Assembly: GCA_025331445.1 (NCBI GenBank)
Contig: JAIWNE010000045.1
Span: 124,001-188,000, forward strand
Direction of reading: 5' to 3'
DNA: 64,000 bases
Source: Blakeslea trispora
Lineage: Eukaryota; Mucoromycota; Mucoromycetes; Mucorales; Choanephoraceae
The notes beneath the pieces were generated by a model. The model was not told where the DNA came from and did no database searches. It saw nothing but the letters and a program-made list of their open reading frames with translations. Numbering within the stretch: the stretch's first letter is position 1; every line of letters starts with the position of its first letter. Below are positions 30,878 through 48,820 of the stretch, one piece after another. A program made the position numbers and the translations under genes.

Positions 30878-31666
30878 TTAGATAGGCTCTTTATTTAGAC
30901 ACTTGGGAAAAGTATTTATGGAATGCTGAATGTAGTTTCGTATATTCTGAAGCGGTACCTTCTCACAAGCATCCATCATTCGCGAAGTAAGAGTCTCATT
31001 ATCTTTAAGTTTTTCTCTCTTAACATAGTCCTTAAGATCCTTCCAAAATTGCTCAATTGGATTTAGTTCGGGTGAGTAAGGTGGAAGATACACAGGTTTA
31101 TATCCACGACGAATTATGATGGGATCAACGATGTTATGAACGTGGATGGGAGCATTATCCATGACAATGTGATAGCCCCTCATTTCTGGAAACTGATCCA
31201 TAATATCCATCGTATCCACAACAAACTGCATGAAATGGTTACCAGTAGTACCCTTTGGCAAGTTGAGACGATCTTCTGGAGCCTTTCTTTTCGTAGCACC
31301 AGCTACTTTTCTCCTCTTCACATTACCAGCTTCTCTAATACTTACATTGACAATGCCAGCAGACGATACAGCGCCGAGAGCAGTCTTTGATACTGCTTTT
31401 GTAGATGGCGTTTCTTCAATAGCTGGCTCTCCTTTCTTTGACCAGGCTCTTCCTCGAGTCATGTTGACGTTGAAGCCAGATTCATCAACAAATATACAAT
31501 TGTTGTGGTAGTCGATTCCCTTTGCAATCCATTCAGCAACCCAAGCTGCCCTAGCCTCGAGAGTTTTGGTACTGTTTCGTTCTTCTTGTGAATAGTCGGC
31601 TTTATCTGCCGAAGTCAAAGTGACGGATTCACCAGGCATCAGTTCGAGTACCTTTTCATTCAGCAA
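30878..31666 (-). pseudogene. DDE transposase, catalytic C-terminal part
   Basis: A 262-codon open frame of the IS630/Tc1/mariner superfamily (DDE_3). The triad is visible: Asp in CIFVDESGFNV, Asp in YHIVMDNAPIHVH and Glu in YSPELNPIEQFW. With 34 residues between the second and third positions it is a DD34E type. The frame starts inside the protein: the helix-turn-helix DNA-binding region expected before LTSADKADYS is missing, and upstream sequence turns into the dispersed repeat at about 31690. It is therefore a truncated transposase, though the catalytic part has no stop codon. Confidence 0.85.
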
Positions 31667-31689
31667 ATCGACAGTATATATATGATTTG

Positions 31690-32340
31690 TATGACATGAT
31701 TTACTCGCATGCTTTCACTGATGCAAAGGCATTAATGTATCATCCTACTCTTTTTTTTTTCTTTTCACTACAGAATAATGAATAGTAATCAAGGTAAATG
31801 ATCTACATCAAGCTTTACTCTTTTCATGATAAGAATGAAGATTTGGTCTTTTTGTATTGTTAAATAAAGAACCAGGGTGTTCATTGTTTATAGCAGAGCC
31901 CAGACCAATTTACACAAAGATCAAACAAACAATCAATATATCAGCCAATGAGGACAGCTGATCAGTAATGTAGTCAATCTAATTTATAAAAACAAAAGAA
32001 AAAAAAAGTACCTTTTCTTTCTTTTCTTTCTTTAATTATTATTTAGAATGAATACATTACAAACAAAGGTAACAAAGCTGTTCTTTAGGCTGTGAAATAT
32101 TTGCTAATGATCTCTTAGAGTAATTACTGCGCGCTTTCTTGCTGTCTAGATGACATGCAGAAAAGTAACTGTTTGGAAAGAAGGCATGTATTTCATCATG
32201 ATTGTTGTCGCGTATCTGTACTGATCAAAATGAATAGGCCTTTTTTTATTTGTTCTTTTCTTAAGAAGAGGTAAGCGATCCATTCAAGAGCTAAAACGAT
32301 GTCTAAGAAACAGAAAAACTAAAACAATGTTTACACTTTA
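31690..32340 (-). repeat. dispersed repeat, copy B (5' region of the cargo gene)
   Basis: Reverse-complement match to 1330-2010. One edge coincides with the break in the transposase frame at about 31690. The other runs up to the first possible exon of the cargo gene, so the repeat is probably its promoter region. Confidence 0.75.
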
Positions 32341-41427: not shown

Positions 41428-41744
41428 TCTTTTACCATAGATCTTGAAGATTATGTTTACTGAAACTATAGATGAACATAACTTTTTTTTATAACTGAAC
41501 CTTTGTTAAGAATATCGAAGATCAAGCTAATGTGAGGAACAATCGAAAAAAAAATGGAAAAAATACATCCCAAATTAGGATATGATCATAGGAAATATGG
41601 TTGCGTCTTTCTTATATTTCAAAAGCTATCATCAAATTATAAATTGAGTTTAAATTGGCAAAGCTGTCATGTCTGGGGGGGGGGGAGAGAAGATTTAGCA
41701 ATTTAAAGCAATTAGAGTTTATGTAACACTTACAACCTTGCTCA
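41428..41744. other. spacer between the two Fanzor copies
   Basis: AT-rich DNA with a G11 tract (41675-41685), directly 3' of the Fanzor stop codon. For TnpB/Fanzor elements this is where the guide (omega) RNA is expected, but no conserved structure can be assigned by eye. Confidence 0.4.
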
Positions 41745-41745
41745 T

Positions 41746-41758
41746 CACGCTTCGCGTG
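41746..41758. other. GC-rich hairpin overlapping the Fanzor stop codon
   Basis: CACGC-TTC-GCGTG, a perfect 5-bp stem with a 3-nt loop, overlaps the TGA at 41747-41745. It is unusually GC-rich for this AT-rich region and could be the first stem of an omega RNA. Confidence 0.4.
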
Positions 41759-43926
41759 CAGCCAATACACCGCTTCTTGTACAAAAGGATGCTGTTTTGT
41801 GATTAAATTCAGTGTCGGAGGGACTGATGGTCTGAGAGAAAGCAGGGAGGGTTTGCTGAAAGAGCATACTCGTAATCCCGGAAATGGCAATAGCAAGAGC
41901 AGACAGTTTGTCACGGCCACTTACCCCACGACCATTCTTGACAGATGGGCATTCAGGGTTCAAACAATGGAACGCGCCTTTCATGTTTCTATATACTGTT
42001 TTGTTTTTCACTTGTATGAGCTGCTTTGGATGTTGAAGTTTGTGAAAGCAATAGACACATGTCTGGGAAGTATAGTTTTCATTGGTAATGCTGACTGTTG
42101 TATAGCGGGCATGGTTATCCTGTTTCCAAGTTCCACCATAGCGCAGGTGCCGCTTGATTCTGGAGCCAACACCCATACCTCTATCACCAATCATCATAAC
42201 CAACTGCTTCTGAGATGACTGAGGCTCTACTTTCTTCTTGCCTTTTCGATCTTTGACTGCTTCTACTTTAGGGTTCAACCAAAGACGTTCTCGAGCACAA
42301 ACACGGTCTTTTGACTTCTTCATAAACATTTCTCTTTTCATATCACCCTTCTTCATCTTGGCATTCTGGTAGAAGCTTCTCACTACATTCTTATTATCTT
42401 GTAAACATCTGTACGCATTCCAAACATCTTCTTCATTCTTGATAGTACTGAAATTTTGACGTGACAATGCTGCTTCTGCTTCAGCGACTTGCGGACTGTT
42501 TTTCTTCATCAACGCCAACTCATGTCTGTAATGAAAGCTTCTACTTGCAAAATCAACATCTTCAGCCGAGACTGTCTTTGCTTCAGGCAATGGTTGGAAT
42601 TCAGGTTCAGTTTGCTCAGTCAAAGCAGCGAAACGGTTGTGGAGCTTCAAATGGTAGACATATCGTTCAAGTGAAACAGGTACTGATTCTGACATTTTTA
42701 CAATGCCATTGTCCGTGCCAGAGAAAACGAAATCTTGAGAAAGTTGTTGAGGATCTGGATCAAGTTTTGCATCTTCAGACTTGAATATAGCACCTCGTTC
42801 ATTGACATCAGCCTTTTGGATATGTCTCAAGGTCTTTTCAGCCTTCTGCTTTCCCTTGTCTTTTTTAGGCATGGCAAGAGCTCTACGTCGAATATACAGA
42901 CTAAATCTTTGATCAGACAACTCGCGCTTGCATTCTTCAACAGCCAAATAACCCTCATATCTTTTTTCTTTTAACAAATTGATGAGCTGAGATATCTCCT
43001 TTCGAATGTCATCTAAAGCTTTCTTTTGTAGCTCGGTAGGTATAGCCACTGGCAGTTCCTGCTGACCAGATTGAGTACCTTTGAGTTTGTTGATTGCGTT
43101 GCGAATGATATTAAAGATGTCTGGCAAGCAGCCACAAAGACCGGCTTCAGCTTCTTCGGAAGGAGTGGATGGCCTAGATGGTTCAGTTGGTAGAGCTTGA
43201 ATTGCAGAAGGCTCGGAGAAGGGGTTTTTCCAATATCGCTTAGCTACTTTGATTTGAATACCAAAGTTACCATCATTGTATGCTTTATAAGCTTGCTTCA
43301 GGTTCTTGGACAAATCATTCACTTCTTTCTGCAAAGTAGCAATTTCATTCTTGAGGTTGTTCTTGTCTTTTTCAGACTGCAACAGGATTTGCTGCCATGT
43401 TGATTCTGGAAGATTGCTGGTGGAAGGCTGCTTTTTTAAAGAAGCTGTTGTTTCCTTGGGCTTGTTCATCTTTGTACCTAACAACCTTACATGCTGTAAG
43501 CCGGGCAGAATAGTGATGTTGTGTGCGAATATTAACTTGTTTCTTTTGCATGCTGCTTGAATGCTTGCCATATCGAAAAAGGAATTAAACACAGCATCCT
43601 TATGATTATAGACATCAATTGTACGCTGAAGCGGTGTGCCATCATATTTGAAAAGGCTTAGTCTTTGTTGACCATGATTACAATACAAAGAGTAGAGGGA
43701 TTCTGCATTCATTCGGAAAGCTTTTAGGCTGGCAGAGGGCATAGGACACATGTTGCGATTAAATCTAGCATAACCGGCACAGCGGAGAAGATCGTTTGCA
43801 AGGATAATAAATGGAAGTTGGTGGCCAATAGAGTCACAGTTTGTTTTTGATGGGATATATGGTTTGAGCCTTGTGACAATAAGTAAGCATACATTAATCT
43901 CATGTTCTGCAAGATCAGCGCGTTTA

Positions 43927-45281
43927 CAGTGTGGTTCGAAATAAGCTGCGGATTTTGTAAACTCCGCAATTTGATTATCTAGCCCATTGTTGTTCTGTTG
44001 ATCTTCCCATCACCTTTTTCTTAATAAACATAATAAAATGAACACATCTACTATTACTCCTGTTACCAAAGAAGCCAATAAGCACCTTTCCGAATTCGAT
44101 TATGGTAGATTAGCAGGCGCTTTCTTGTACAAAGGAAACTTTGTTCAAATCTCAAGAGATCTCGACCTCCCTAAATCAACTGTACAATCATCTTATAAAA
44201 GACTTCAGAAAACACAAACCACTCTTCCCAAAACTTCAACTGAAAGAAAAAGGCTTCTTTCTCAAACTGGTTTGAACGCGATTAGTCAAAGCGTTCGTCG
44301 TCGACCTACTGAGTTAATTAGGGCTCAGCATCGTCGATTTTTGGGTTCAGGCAAGAAGGTCTCTTTGTCCACTTTTCGAGATGCATTGACTCGTATGAAG
44401 TTCAAACGTCGTGTAGCGGCAAAAAAGCCTGCTCTGAAGCAGACGCACAAACAATTGCGTTTAGCTTGGATCAAAGAGAGGTTGGATTGGGCAAGAGCTG
44501 ACTGGGATAAGGTAGTTTGGTCTGACGAGGCCAAGTTCACCCTGAAGAGCGCTAGTGCTGGAACCAGAGTAATCAGAAAGGATGGATAAAGGTACGAGGA
44601 GAGGCATATCAAGGATACCCACAAGTTTGGTTTGGGTTCTGTGATGGTATGGGGATGCTTTCACGCAAATGGTGTTGGCCCTTTAGTCACAACAACATGG
44701 ATCAATTGATCAAGAAGTCTATGTCCAATGTTTGGTTGATTACTATCTTCCTTGGATCGAAAAAGAGTCCAAGAAGACCAACATTGACTACATACTGCAA
44801 GAAGACAATGCTCCTTGTCATGTAGGAGCATATTCTAGGTGGTTGAAGATGGAGACCATGACCAACACCTTTGACAGATGGCCACCACAGAGTCCAGACC
44901 TCAACCCAATTGAAAAGGTCTGGGCTCAGCTGAAAAAGCGCTTAGATGAGCGTGAGAGTGAGGTGAACACCCTCAGTGACTTGGAAAGGGTTTTGAAAGA
45001 AAGAATGGTACCAGCTGACGCCAGAGTATCTAAACAACCTTGTTAGCAGTATGAGCCGAAGATGCAAATCAATTGCAAAAGCGCATGGAGGCCATACAAA
45101 GTATTAACAAATCCACTTTTTTTTTTAGCCAAATAGAACAGTATACTCTATTTTACACATCCTCAAAGTTTGAAGGTACTTTTAATAGGCAAAAGCTGTA
45201 CTGATGCACAACAGCCTTCATGATGTAAAGTACTCTTTAAATTTGATTTTCGAAATCCGCAACTTATTTCGAACCACACTG
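43927..45281 (+). mobile_element. Tc1 element inserted in the Fanzor gene
   Basis: A 1,355-bp element with 29-bp inverted repeats starting CAGTGTGGTTCGAAATAAG (43927-43955 and 45253-45281, one mismatch), flanked by the TA duplication (43925-43926, 45282-45283). Removing the element and one TA joins the Fanzor frame exactly: the codons around the site read ...ESLVN then KRADLAEHE. The insertion therefore came after the Fanzor gene was a continuous frame. Confidence 0.93.
44038..45107 (+). pseudogene. Tc1 transposase, decayed
   Basis: A Tc1-family transposase with an N-terminal HTH region (FVQISRDLDLPKSTVQSSYK), first catalytic Asp in VVWSDEAKF, second in YILQEDNAPCH, and PDLNPIEKVWAQLK with the third acidic residue. 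The C-terminus SIAKAHGGHTKY is typical. It is broken by a TAA at 44587-44589, a frame change near 44700 and another near 45010. It cannot make a full transposase; movement would need one supplied in trans. Confidence 0.88.
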
Positions 45282-47259
45282 TATTCACCAAAGATTCACG
45301 AGTGAGATCATCATCTTCAAATAGTAAGCTTTTCATCAGACCCTTCAATTCGAATATACGCCTTCTACTAGCATCTTGGCTACTATCCCTCAAAACATCT
45401 TCTTCTTCAATTATATCTACTTCTTCAACACTAGAATAGTCATCGGGGGATGGAGGTAAAGCAGCTTCTTCAGATACTTTTTTGGCCATGGCTGATTCTT
45501 CTAACGGGGATCTCATTGGTTCTTTGCCTTTGCTAGACTTGATATTTAGAGGCTTTGCAGATTGACTTCCAACAGATACAGCCAATTTTTTGCTGCCTTC
45601 AGCTCGTTCTTGGGAACCTATATCTTCAAGAGGTCGCTTTCGACTTGGACCAGGGGCATTTTCAGCAACAACATGTTTAGATGTAGTTTGTTTTTGTGTC
45701 TCTCGCTTCTTCTAAATAAAGTGAAGATAAAGGTTTATGAGTGCTACTGTTATAAGTCGAGATAAGAAAAAACTGTTACCTTCTGTATGATAAAATCTTC
45801 GTACGTCTTGATACGTTTTTTGCTCTCGGCAGCGCGTACGATCCAAATGTCACCTTTTTTTGCTTTCCGGTTATACTTCCTCAAGCGGTATTTCTCATTC
45901 CTAATGATCTTGCGATACACACTTGATGGTAATACAGAAATATCATGGTTTTGAACTTGTGGGGGCAACTGGCTCTCCTCGTTTTTCTTCTTTTGACGTT
46001 CTTTTGCACGGTCTGCGTAGGTACTGAGGTATTCTTGATGCTTTTTTTCTCTCAAAGGAGACAGATGGATTCTTAAGAGTGCTAACAATAGCTTGTCCAA
46101 CAGGATCTTGAACATTTTCTTCTCGGCCCACATGTTGGATAGATTGGTTTGGTAGGTAGTCAGGGCAGACACGTAGCATTCTCTGTTTAGAGAGTTTTTT
46201 TTCAAAGGTAGTTTGGGAGCTGTATTGTGGTTTTATGATGTTGATTAGACTCAAAATTAGAGGGTATTTAGATTTGCTAGCATCAGTCATGCCTCTTGCT
46301 CCATAGAATTCAGATAATAATAAACTCAGATGATTGCTGGTAAACAAACCGCGGATTTGTGCGTCAAGAGCATCATGGTTTTGAGGTAGTGGGCTAGCGG
46401 AATGCTGAACATGTTCTTGCATTTTGAAATTGTCAGAAAATATGTCTTGTGTTCTAAAGCCTTCTGCTGCTTGGAAGTTGATTTGGTTTGTGTCCAGCAC
46501 AAAATTATGATTGCGAAATGAAAGCATGGTTAGAAATACAAGGAGTTGGAAATCAGCTACAAAATCAGATGCAGAAGGGACAAGCATGTTCATCTTGGTA
46601 TCAAATATGGTCTTGATTGGTTCATTCAAGTTTTTACGCAAAATTGAGTTGAATGACACAGTACAGACAGCATAGTTTTCATCTTCAGTTTCTTCAGTTT
46701 CCAGTTCTTCAGGCACATCTTCAGATAGCATAGGTATATCTTCAGATGGAGAAGCAGCCATGCTCATGGGACTAGCTGCTGAAGGCGAAGCAGCACTCAT
46801 TGGGCTTTGCATTGTCAGAGCAGAAAGGAAATCACTAGGAGTGCCTGCTCTAGCAGACTCTTGAAATTCTTGATAGATTTGATCAAAATTGTTTGATAGG
46901 TACTGATTCCAAGCGATATGACCCCTGGGCATATTATTATCATCTCTGAATCTTGCTGATGCTTCACCTTTTTCTAGATTGGCCATCTCCTCTACTTTGG
47001 CATAGAACCCTTTTGGAGCCGTCCTTTTAGCTTTTAGTACTTCTTTACCATTAGCAGGGTTAGGCGATTTTTGCATCTATTCAATAATATAAGTTTTTGC
47101 AGCCATTTCAAATGCGCCGATGAATTCTTGTGCAGGTTGATCTCTCCATCTTCTTCGAGTAGCTTGGGTGACAACAGAAGCAGAAGCAGATGCTAGGATT
47201 GGTCCTCTGACATCTTCATCTGTATAAACAGAGTATTGTCTGGCCTTTTCGCGTACCAT

Positions 47260-48820
47260 TAAAGTGATGATACTGGCGCCTGATTTACGACTTGTGTGAG
47301 TTCATTACGTTTACCTTTACAATCTTCTTTAAGCTAACTTACTTTAAATTGATTACCTGTATTATTTGCAGCACAACAATGAAATTAACAGAAAAAAAAG
47401 GAATTAAAGAAGAGTGATATAAGAATGGTCCAATCCTTCTTCTAATTTATCTCTCTATTTATATATTTCTAAAGCCAATGCAGTTTTCATTGTCTTCTAT
47501 TATCAAGTAATATTCCTGTTTTTGGTGTTATGTTACACTTGAAGTGGGAAGCACACATCTTCTCAAAACAAAGAAAGTAGTACTCAATAAAGAAACAGAG
47601 TTTAATGATAACTAAAATAGATAACCATATTCAAAAAAAGATAAAATACACATCTATTTGATCAGACTCATCATGCTAACCCTTAAAGACAGCTTTAATC
47701 GCTCGAAACGGCTGACAATAGGAAAGAACAATGAGCCGTTATTTGAGATAGAGGCTGATTGAATAATACAGTTATCTACAGTAATACAATTTTAGTACAC
47801 AAAGCGATAAGAGAAAGATAGGCAGGAAAAAAGCAGCAGGAGAAGAACTGCTCTTTGCTATGTCTGTGTTACAGCAATCAATGCAGTTTATTGATTCCTT
47901 CTAAAGATAGCCAACACATATGAAAAGACCTATTTGATAAGGATATAATATGTTTTTGCTTTAACAATATTAGACTACTTGCTTGATATCGAGTTGTACA
48001 TTTTAGATCGTTTTGTACGTGGAGTGAACGCTATTCACCAAAAAAATCATCAAATTTATTACTAAGGAAACAATAGCATGAAATCTTTTAAGGTAGACAG
48101 TTTTCTTTCTTTAGAGAAGCTAAGCTTTTGAAAGAACAAATACAGTCAAATGTTTGATTTATATAGACAAACGACAACAACCAAGTTTGATCTGGGTACT
48201 GCTTGTGGTCGCCCTTCTCAAACAGAAACAAACTCCCTTTAATTTATAGCAGGAGGTAAGTTATTTCATATGCCTCAAATGTACAGTGCTGATGACTTTT
48301 ACCCAAAAAAATCACATTACAAGCTTGATTCCATAAATGGGACACTTTTTTATTCGAGCATATCTTTCATTGACTCCTCTAATAATGTTCCTTAAACGAA
48401 ATCCAGCTCTTGCAAGGATTGCAGGGCGTTACTGGCTTCGTTTCTGAGATAAGGCTTACTTCATTAGCTTGATTGTCTTACTCACTTTCGTTTCTTATTT
48501 GTAGTCGAACAAGCTCTCAATCACTGTAATTTTCTTGATGAATCTCTTTGGTAGAACAGAGAGAAACTTTTGTAGTTTTTAGTAATGTTCTGTTTGAGCC
48601 CACTCATCAAAAAGCATTGTATGCAAAAGCTTAAATGAGCGACGGTAATAACAACTTTTATTGGCTAACAGTGTCCAATCGTATTGCTTATTACCGGCGG
48701 AGTAGTCCCCCAGACACAGCAGCCCCGCCTTTAAATTGTATTTGCGGAGTTCAAGTTGTGATAATATTTTATGCAGCAGAGATCTGATAATTATTTTTCT
48801 TTTAAAAAATTCCTTTTACC
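47260..48820. other. intergenic region upstream of the Fanzor gene and the LRR gene
   Basis: About 1.56 kb between divergent genes. I looked for an inverted repeat matching the far side of the Fanzor locus and found none convincing. The last 150 bp contain a GC-rich patch (near 48690-48735), unlike its surroundings. Confidence 0.45.

Follow-up and report, generated by a model that had tools for sequence, protein, structure and literature searches.

Introduction

Fanzor1 genes are borne by transposable elements, some families of which lack a transposase gene, and ten Fanzor1 families are given for Mucor circinelloides in the accessible part of the survey by Bao and Jurka (2013, PMC3627910). 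Here we describe a locus of Blakeslea trispora (Mucorales) at positions 41745..47259 of a stretch of 64,000 nucleotides, hereafter the window (GenBank assembly GCA_025331445.1, contig JAIWNE010000045.1, positions 124,001 to 188,000 of the forward strand), which an initial annotation had read as a gene for a Fanzor-type RNA-guided nuclease interrupted by a Tc1 element. The species is used to make carotene. We find that the locus is one copy of a multicopy transposon with inverted ends, 8-bp duplications and several copy families, most of the copies examined being placed 15 bp from a sequence motif, and that exon 2 of its gene evolves under purifying selection. The reading that we favour, with moderate confidence, is a damaged copy of a cut-and-paste-type transposon whose gene would code for a very divergent Fanzor-like protein, the element depending on a transposase in trans and on the Fanzor-like protein as a retention nuclease.

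The locus is similar to the Fanzor1 elements in that the gene is borne by a transposable element, in some Fanzor1 families one without a transposase gene. It differs in that the MuDR-like Fanzor elements of the same survey have 9-bp duplications and not 8 bp as here, that no fixed-distance target motif is described in the accessible part of that article, and that the present protein escapes profile detection (PMC3627910). The element may be related to one of the ten M. circinelloides families.

According to the available parts of two further articles, the protein shares with GtFz1, SpuFz1 and PpFz1 a putative zinc ribbon ahead of the last catalytic residue, and with GtFz1 a relocated glutamate (PMC11423790, PMC10432273). 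It differs from them in a DNG motif, a CxxxxC second cysteine pair, an exon-1 part of 493 residues and no detectable sequence homology; it is a putative nuclease. Strict target choice by a DNA transposon is found in Dada, which, in the part of the description available, has a DDE transposase, duplications of 6-7 bp and small RNA genes as targets (PMC3706591), whereas here no tRNA is seen in the flanks examined. Among the titles and abstracts listed in searches of the open-licence literature on Fanzor transposons and on transposable elements of Mucorales and Blakeslea, we found no description of this family or of a fixed Fanzor target motif.

A multicopy transposon with defined ends

The region 41745..47259 is too narrow, and the initial annotation did not recognise the locus as a transposon that is present in multiple copies and has a target motif. 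The mobile element extends from 41657 to 48729 and consists of the following parts, where no strand is given for features that have none.

41657..48729, minus strand: whole transposon copy of family A, 7,073 bp including the nested Tc1-type element; nine sister copies are 5,712-5,755 bp long
41649..41656: left 8-bp target site duplication TTTAAATT
48730..48737: right 8-bp target site duplication TTTAAATT
41657..41680: left terminal inverted repeat GGCAAAGCTGTCATGTCTGGGGGG, about 24 bp
48706..48729: right terminal inverted repeat, on the minus strand GGCGGGGCTGCTGTGTCTGGGG.., about 24 bp
48356..48729: conserved right end, 374 bp, with imperfect hairpin arms at 48640-48664 and 48675-48699 (72% complementary)

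DNA matches among the window copy and the C35 and C2 copies stop sharply at the inverted ends, with 8-bp duplications. The 40 places scored, out of 116 candidates, match the right 374 bp with 90-100% identity. The gene is thus carried by a transposon, as Fanzor1 genes are. For 28 copies both ends were read, and the 8-bp duplication is exact in 21, has one mismatch in 2 and shows no match in 5. Three of these five (C113, C1 and C107) have one flank in common with another copy; in the pairs C45/C113, C1/C74 and C107/C242 one flank is shared and the other is not, as after recombination between copies.

To count the copies, we used a 19-mer of the right end (up to 2 mismatches, 89 places) and a 20-mer of the left end (up to 3 mismatches, 75 places); the reversed patterns gave 0 places each. 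The 50 paired ends, including one C45 left end added by hand, group around three sizes, 5.7 kb for family A, 4.95 kb for family B and 0.75 kb for the miniature copies, alongside pairs of other sizes; 26 left and 40 right ends are unpaired. The miniature copies, of roughly 750 bp, retain both ends. The family B protein is 51% identical to that of family A, and the ends are nearly alike. Copies that are 98% identical and the exact duplications mark the family as recent.

MULE, KDZ and hAT were the three transposase families sought, and none of them has a match inside the 50 paired elements (0 of the 45 matches tested by script, on contigs with pairs); five neighbouring pieces of transposase matches, checked by eye, are also outside. 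Two MULE matches (C216:206908 and C273:28701) and a weak hAT piece (C2:556025) lie 3.3, 4.2 and 6.7 kb inward of unpaired ends, as measured by eye. The two MULE matches, which are inward of unpaired left ends, may be nested elements or a source of transposase. The C231 right ends (L091; at 313009, 320300 and 327593, a spacing of 7.29 kb) were considered as an autonomous element and turned out to be a tandemly repeated old diverged copy.

A target motif 15 bp from the right end

The motif of the window copy is located as follows.

48745..48755, plus strand: target motif CGGAGTTCAAG, 7 bp beyond the duplication; the consensus in 39 flanks is CGG-R-N-TTYRAA

We compared 39 distinct right flanks, mostly of copies from the right-end candidate list, a subset of the 89 end places. 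From position 16 onward they agree on C (33 flanks), G (32) and G (31), and on A at positions 25 (35) and 26 (34). In 27 of the 39 the CGG is at offset 16, which is exactly 15 bp away from the end, and in 2 it is at offset 15, compared with a mean of 0.16 and a maximum of 1 at other offsets, neighbours excluded. At least 9 of the 11 motif positions match at the fixed offset in 29 of the 39 flanks; the fit is poor in L057, L080 and L064. No motif is present in 35 left flanks; it sits at the right (gene 5') end. The rule holds in family A, in family B and in several miniature copies.

The motif was also considered as a possible general promoter element. Genome-wide, it occurs at 581 places, and the reversed pattern at 237. 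This count includes some repeats, as L100 and L111 read alike and the match at C22:96431 is part of a Tc1 copy. The window itself has fewer motif places than expected, 18 against 30.7 with one mismatch allowed.

According to the accessible part of PMC4974476, TTYRAA is the consensus of the cell cycle genes homology region (CHR) bound by LIN54. The motif resembles the sites of LIN54/MuvB in which a CHR is combined with a cell cycle-dependent element (CDE), having TTYRAA and a GC-rich half site upstream, but the spacing is 2 bp and not the 4 bp described there (PMC4974476), and the likeness is one of resemblance only. Of nine flanks looked at (those of the window, C35 and C2 and six others), two have a clear gene close by, with its start codon 92 bp past the element end in the window and 98 bp past it in C68. 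The window gene is a leucine-rich-repeat gene, and that of C68 looks like a RING protein resembling NOT4.

Two other explanations of the motif were considered. The 7 bp that separate it from the duplication speak against a role as the target-adjacent motif (TAM) of a guide derived from the flank, and this explanation was rejected. tRNA genes as the target rule were also rejected, as a tRNA lies near only 2 of 20 sampled genome motif sites and at differing distances. ARAGORN, run with the bacterial code on 6 insertion flanks, 3 longer copies and the window, found no tRNA. At L108 (355-428), a tRNA-Val gene has a genome copy of the motif about 35 bp upstream.

The Fanzor-like gene

The gene is on the minus strand and is the sole sizeable gene seen in the 5.7-kb transposon; the other frames in the two whole family A copies read are antisense and reach up to 163 aa. 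Residue numbers refer to a 754-residue frame.

45780..47259, minus strand: exon 1, 493 aa in the C2 copy; the window copy has an in-frame stop (47077-47079) and, near 46200, a frame jump
45712..45779, minus strand: putative GT-AG intron, identified by eye; single-chain homologues from Mucor extend over the two exons
45282..45711, minus strand: exon 2, 5' part
41745..43926, minus strand: 3' part of exon 2, containing the RuvC-like region and zinc ribbon
42711..42713, minus strand: RuvC-I aspartate D433 (D347 of the 668-residue part)
42078..42080, minus strand: alternative catalytic glutamate E644 (E558 of the 668-residue part), E-x6-CxxC
41949..42059, minus strand: zinc ligands C651, C654, C682 and C687
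41910..41912, minus strand: RuvC-III aspartate D700 (D614 of the 668-residue part)

In the uninterrupted C2 copy (L050), exon 1 has 493 residues and exon 2 has 869, about 1,360 aa in total. Exon 1 aligns with single-chain proteins of Mucor lusitanicus (1,268 aa, 3e-33), M. hiemalis (1,030 aa, 7e-145) and M. circinelloides (1,114 aa, 2e-21), and the same three proteins align with exon 2. Exon 1 of the C2 copy gave no hit to Pfam at E<=0.01. Searches for homologues, three in number (13, 8 and 19 matches), returned proteins of Blakeslea, Choanephora, Mucor and Helicostylum among others, and none of the names shown is annotated as Fanzor.

We compared six copies over 2,016 nt of exon 2, including the interrupted window copy. 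The ratio of nonsynonymous to synonymous differences per site (pN/pS) is 0.11-0.34 in all 15 pairs, which are not independent. Exon 2 is under purifying selection, and the protein was required during the spread of the family.

The putative layout of the protein is an N-terminal part, helical segments, a RuvC-like core with a relocated glutamate, and a zinc ribbon. In Fanzors the RuvC-II glutamate is six residues ahead of the zinc-finger CxxC, according to the available part of Yoon 2023 (PMC10711439). The same arrangement is found here, where E644 is followed by six residues and CVYC (E-NYTSQT-CVYC, with C651 and C654), within a RuvC triad like that of Fanzor1. The second pair, C682/C687, is CxxxxC, so that the ribbon reads CxxC...CxxxxC where Fanzor1 has CxxC...CxxC. 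The canonical glutamate position appears to hold a glycine (MMIGDRG). The initial annotation had named Asp347, Glu558, Asp614 and this zinc-ligand pattern, and these residues do fall at the places of the Fanzor RuvC aspartate, alternative glutamate and second aspartate. GtFz1 PEHYTSQECPSC corresponds to NENYTSQTCVYC of the window protein.

In alignment A2 (9 rows) the first aspartate, the glutamate and the first cysteine are present in 9/9, and the other three cysteines and the last aspartate in 8/8 ungapped rows. The signature of glutamate, zinc ligands and aspartate is found in 11 of 22 proteins scanned (P0002-P0015 and P0024-P0031); the remaining 11 lack all or part of the region, several of them being pieces that end ahead of it. 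An upstream D-x-G is also present in 9 of the 11, although in P0025 it is not the usual one. A signature loosened from published ranges, and thus partly post hoc, was found in 5 of 200,000 shuffles of the protein, and in 1 of 200,000 together with the upstream D-x-G.

Six other places in the genome (L001-L006) match PF07282 above its cut-off and look like a different, more typical Fanzor/TnpB-like family; L002 resembles GtFz1 (E 0.008). A search with this genome's PF07282 protein against plasmids gave no match.

The nested Tc1-type element

The coding frame of exon 2 is interrupted by a second element, as proposed in the initial annotation.

43927..45281, plus strand: nested Tc1-type element, 1,355 bp, transposase spread over three frames

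It is bracketed by TA at 43925-43926 and at 45282-45283, and its inverted ends (43925-43961 and 45247-45283) are 37 nt long and 92% complementary. The first frame has an HTH_Tnp_Tc3_2 match (6e-8, Pfam profile search). The TA duplication, the inverted ends and the Tc3-type HTH match are those of Tc1/mariner elements, while the broken transposase frames and the 35 residues between the last D and E (read by eye) set it apart. Fourteen other matches to this element elsewhere in the genome were counted by eye, short inverted-end matches excluded. The transposase of the window element is not intact. Near-matches to the target motif CGG-RN-TTYRAA occur in both inverted ends of the window element (43949-43959 and 45249-45259).

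On both sides of Tc1 the A of the TA is the first base of a codon, in the frames of 45711 and of 44009 (the latter by arithmetic). The codon phase is thus the same and the coding frame is continuous across one TA, in agreement with the rejoining first proposed. Among the 40 candidates scored, out of 186, 20 other copies, paralogous copies and not alleles, have matches reaching both sides and meet at the Tc1 point without an insert, with an overlap of exactly 2 bases in 15 of the 20. The window copy is the only interrupted one among the 21 that span the point.

The further proposal of a gene still whole at the time of the Tc1 insertion is not supported, because of the in-frame stop (47077-47079) and the frame jump near 46200 in exon 1. 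The stop may predate Tc1, as it is common to the uninterrupted C35 copy; the C275 copy has neither the stop nor the frame jump. A start codon directly after the stop is possible.

The conserved gene-3' end

The end of the gene lies in a conserved stretch that reaches to the end of the element.

41657..41815, minus strand: conserved gene-3' terminal stretch, the frame end and 88 bp of noncoding sequence; a candidate guide-RNA scaffold, transposase-binding end or both

The C2 (family A) and C242 (family B) copies show no difference over the 87 bases that run from the stop codon to the end. Fourfold sites are identical at 15 of 17 in the 40-codon block beside the stop, compared with 46 of 120 upstream. 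This means that the ends are shared between the two families, through selection or exchange. In most of 21 copies a stem can pair the terminus with a site about 75 nt inside, without compensatory change.

Proposed mechanism and alternatives

In the reading that we favour, a transposase supplied in trans would move the ends, and either this transposase or a host factor bound to the motif would set the target. An RNA made from the conserved gene-3' end and extending into the flank may guide the Fanzor-like protein, which would cut vacated or related sites so that the element is retained, as TnpB is thought to do. The window copy would later have been struck by Tc1.

Several results weigh against this reading. 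Neither in sequence nor in fold is there a significant match to any known Fanzor, TnpB or Cas12. The window protein matches PF07282 with E=0.067 and 13.8 bits, below the cut-off of 26.3 bits, i.e. the significant match to a Fanzor/TnpB profile by which the initial annotation was to be checked is not obtained. Single proteins and profiles gave no sensible PDB match up to E=10. Two AlphaFold models are poor, with a mean predicted local distance difference test score (pLDDT) of 51.4 and 50.2, and Foldseek returned 0 matches at E<=0.001 for the second. A profile comparison with the PF07282 proteins of the same genome aligns the glutamate and cysteine positions, but with a probability of 1.9% and a P of 0.026. 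The RuvC-I motif is DNG, TDNG being invariant in the 9 rows of A2, and not the DPG that is 'near exclusively' found in Fanzors in the part of PMC10711439 available. At the conserved 3' end, 0 of 28 pairs are compensatory, the fold is only slightly better than that of shuffles (z -1.39), and the sharing between families could be module exchange. The 7 bp between motif and duplication leave no TAM directly beside a flank-derived guide, and among the MULE, KDZ and hAT matches no transposase source was identified.

A doubtful alternative is that the protein is no Fanzor at all, but an unrelated Mucorales transposon protein whose zinc ribbon and acidic residues mimic the Fanzor signature. PF07282 below its cut-off, the lack of structural matches, the low-scoring profile comparison and the poor models would all fit. 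Of 13 relatives, 2 match PF07282 at E<=0.1, and NCBIfam and Pfam searches with single proteins and profiles gave nothing convincing. Against this alternative stand the Glu-x6-CxxC, second cysteine pair and aspartate, kept in order and spacing in half of the proteins scanned, the parallel with GtFz1, and the rarity of the signature in shuffled proteins. We do not file the protein as a Fanzor, as membership is not proven; the residue places and zinc pattern claimed at first stand, while the profile, PDB and model results do not bear out the assignment, and that it works like a Fanzor is the likeliest reading of the residues.

The Fanzor-like protein could also itself be the mobiliser or target selector, its N-terminal half binding the ends or the motif and its RuvC-like core making staggered cuts, which would make the element autonomous. 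We consider this unlikely. It would agree with the single sizeable gene in the two family A copies read whole (of family B a part was read), the selection on exon 2, the paired elements free of MULE, KDZ and hAT matches, and the miniature copies with both ends. However, known Fanzors are nucleases and not transposases, exon 1 is without a Pfam match, and the transposase search took in three families, with two MULE matches and one weak hAT piece on the inner side of unpaired ends. Fanzor elements that lack a transposase gene are described in the accessible part of PMC3627910. A stronger form, in which a protein of Fanzor descent now mobilises or targets the transposon that carries it and places copies 15 bp from a CDE/CHR-like host promoter motif, as a nuclease-guided and motif-targeted integration system of a eukaryote, seems quite improbable. 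Fanzor elements without a transposase are usually taken to move in trans. Least credible is that Tc1 recently silenced a Fanzor gene that was otherwise intact and that precise excision could restore, which we regard as highly improbable. The exact frame continuity, the TA duplication and the uninterrupted sister copies agree with it, but exon 1 has an in-frame stop, shared with an uninterrupted copy, and a frame jump, and the Tc1 transposase is itself broken.

The locus bears on the question of why Fanzors ride on so many eukaryotic transposons. The multicopy family has a single gene under selection, miniature derivatives and a strict target rule, and its sequence gives the donor and target sites together with the enzyme and a candidate guide RNA. 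Even by itself, the target rule is out of the ordinary among DNA transposons and could stem from tethering to a host factor.

Elsewhere in the window, a separate transposase remnant with a DDE_3 match (5.8e-29) is located at 30878-31714 on the minus strand.

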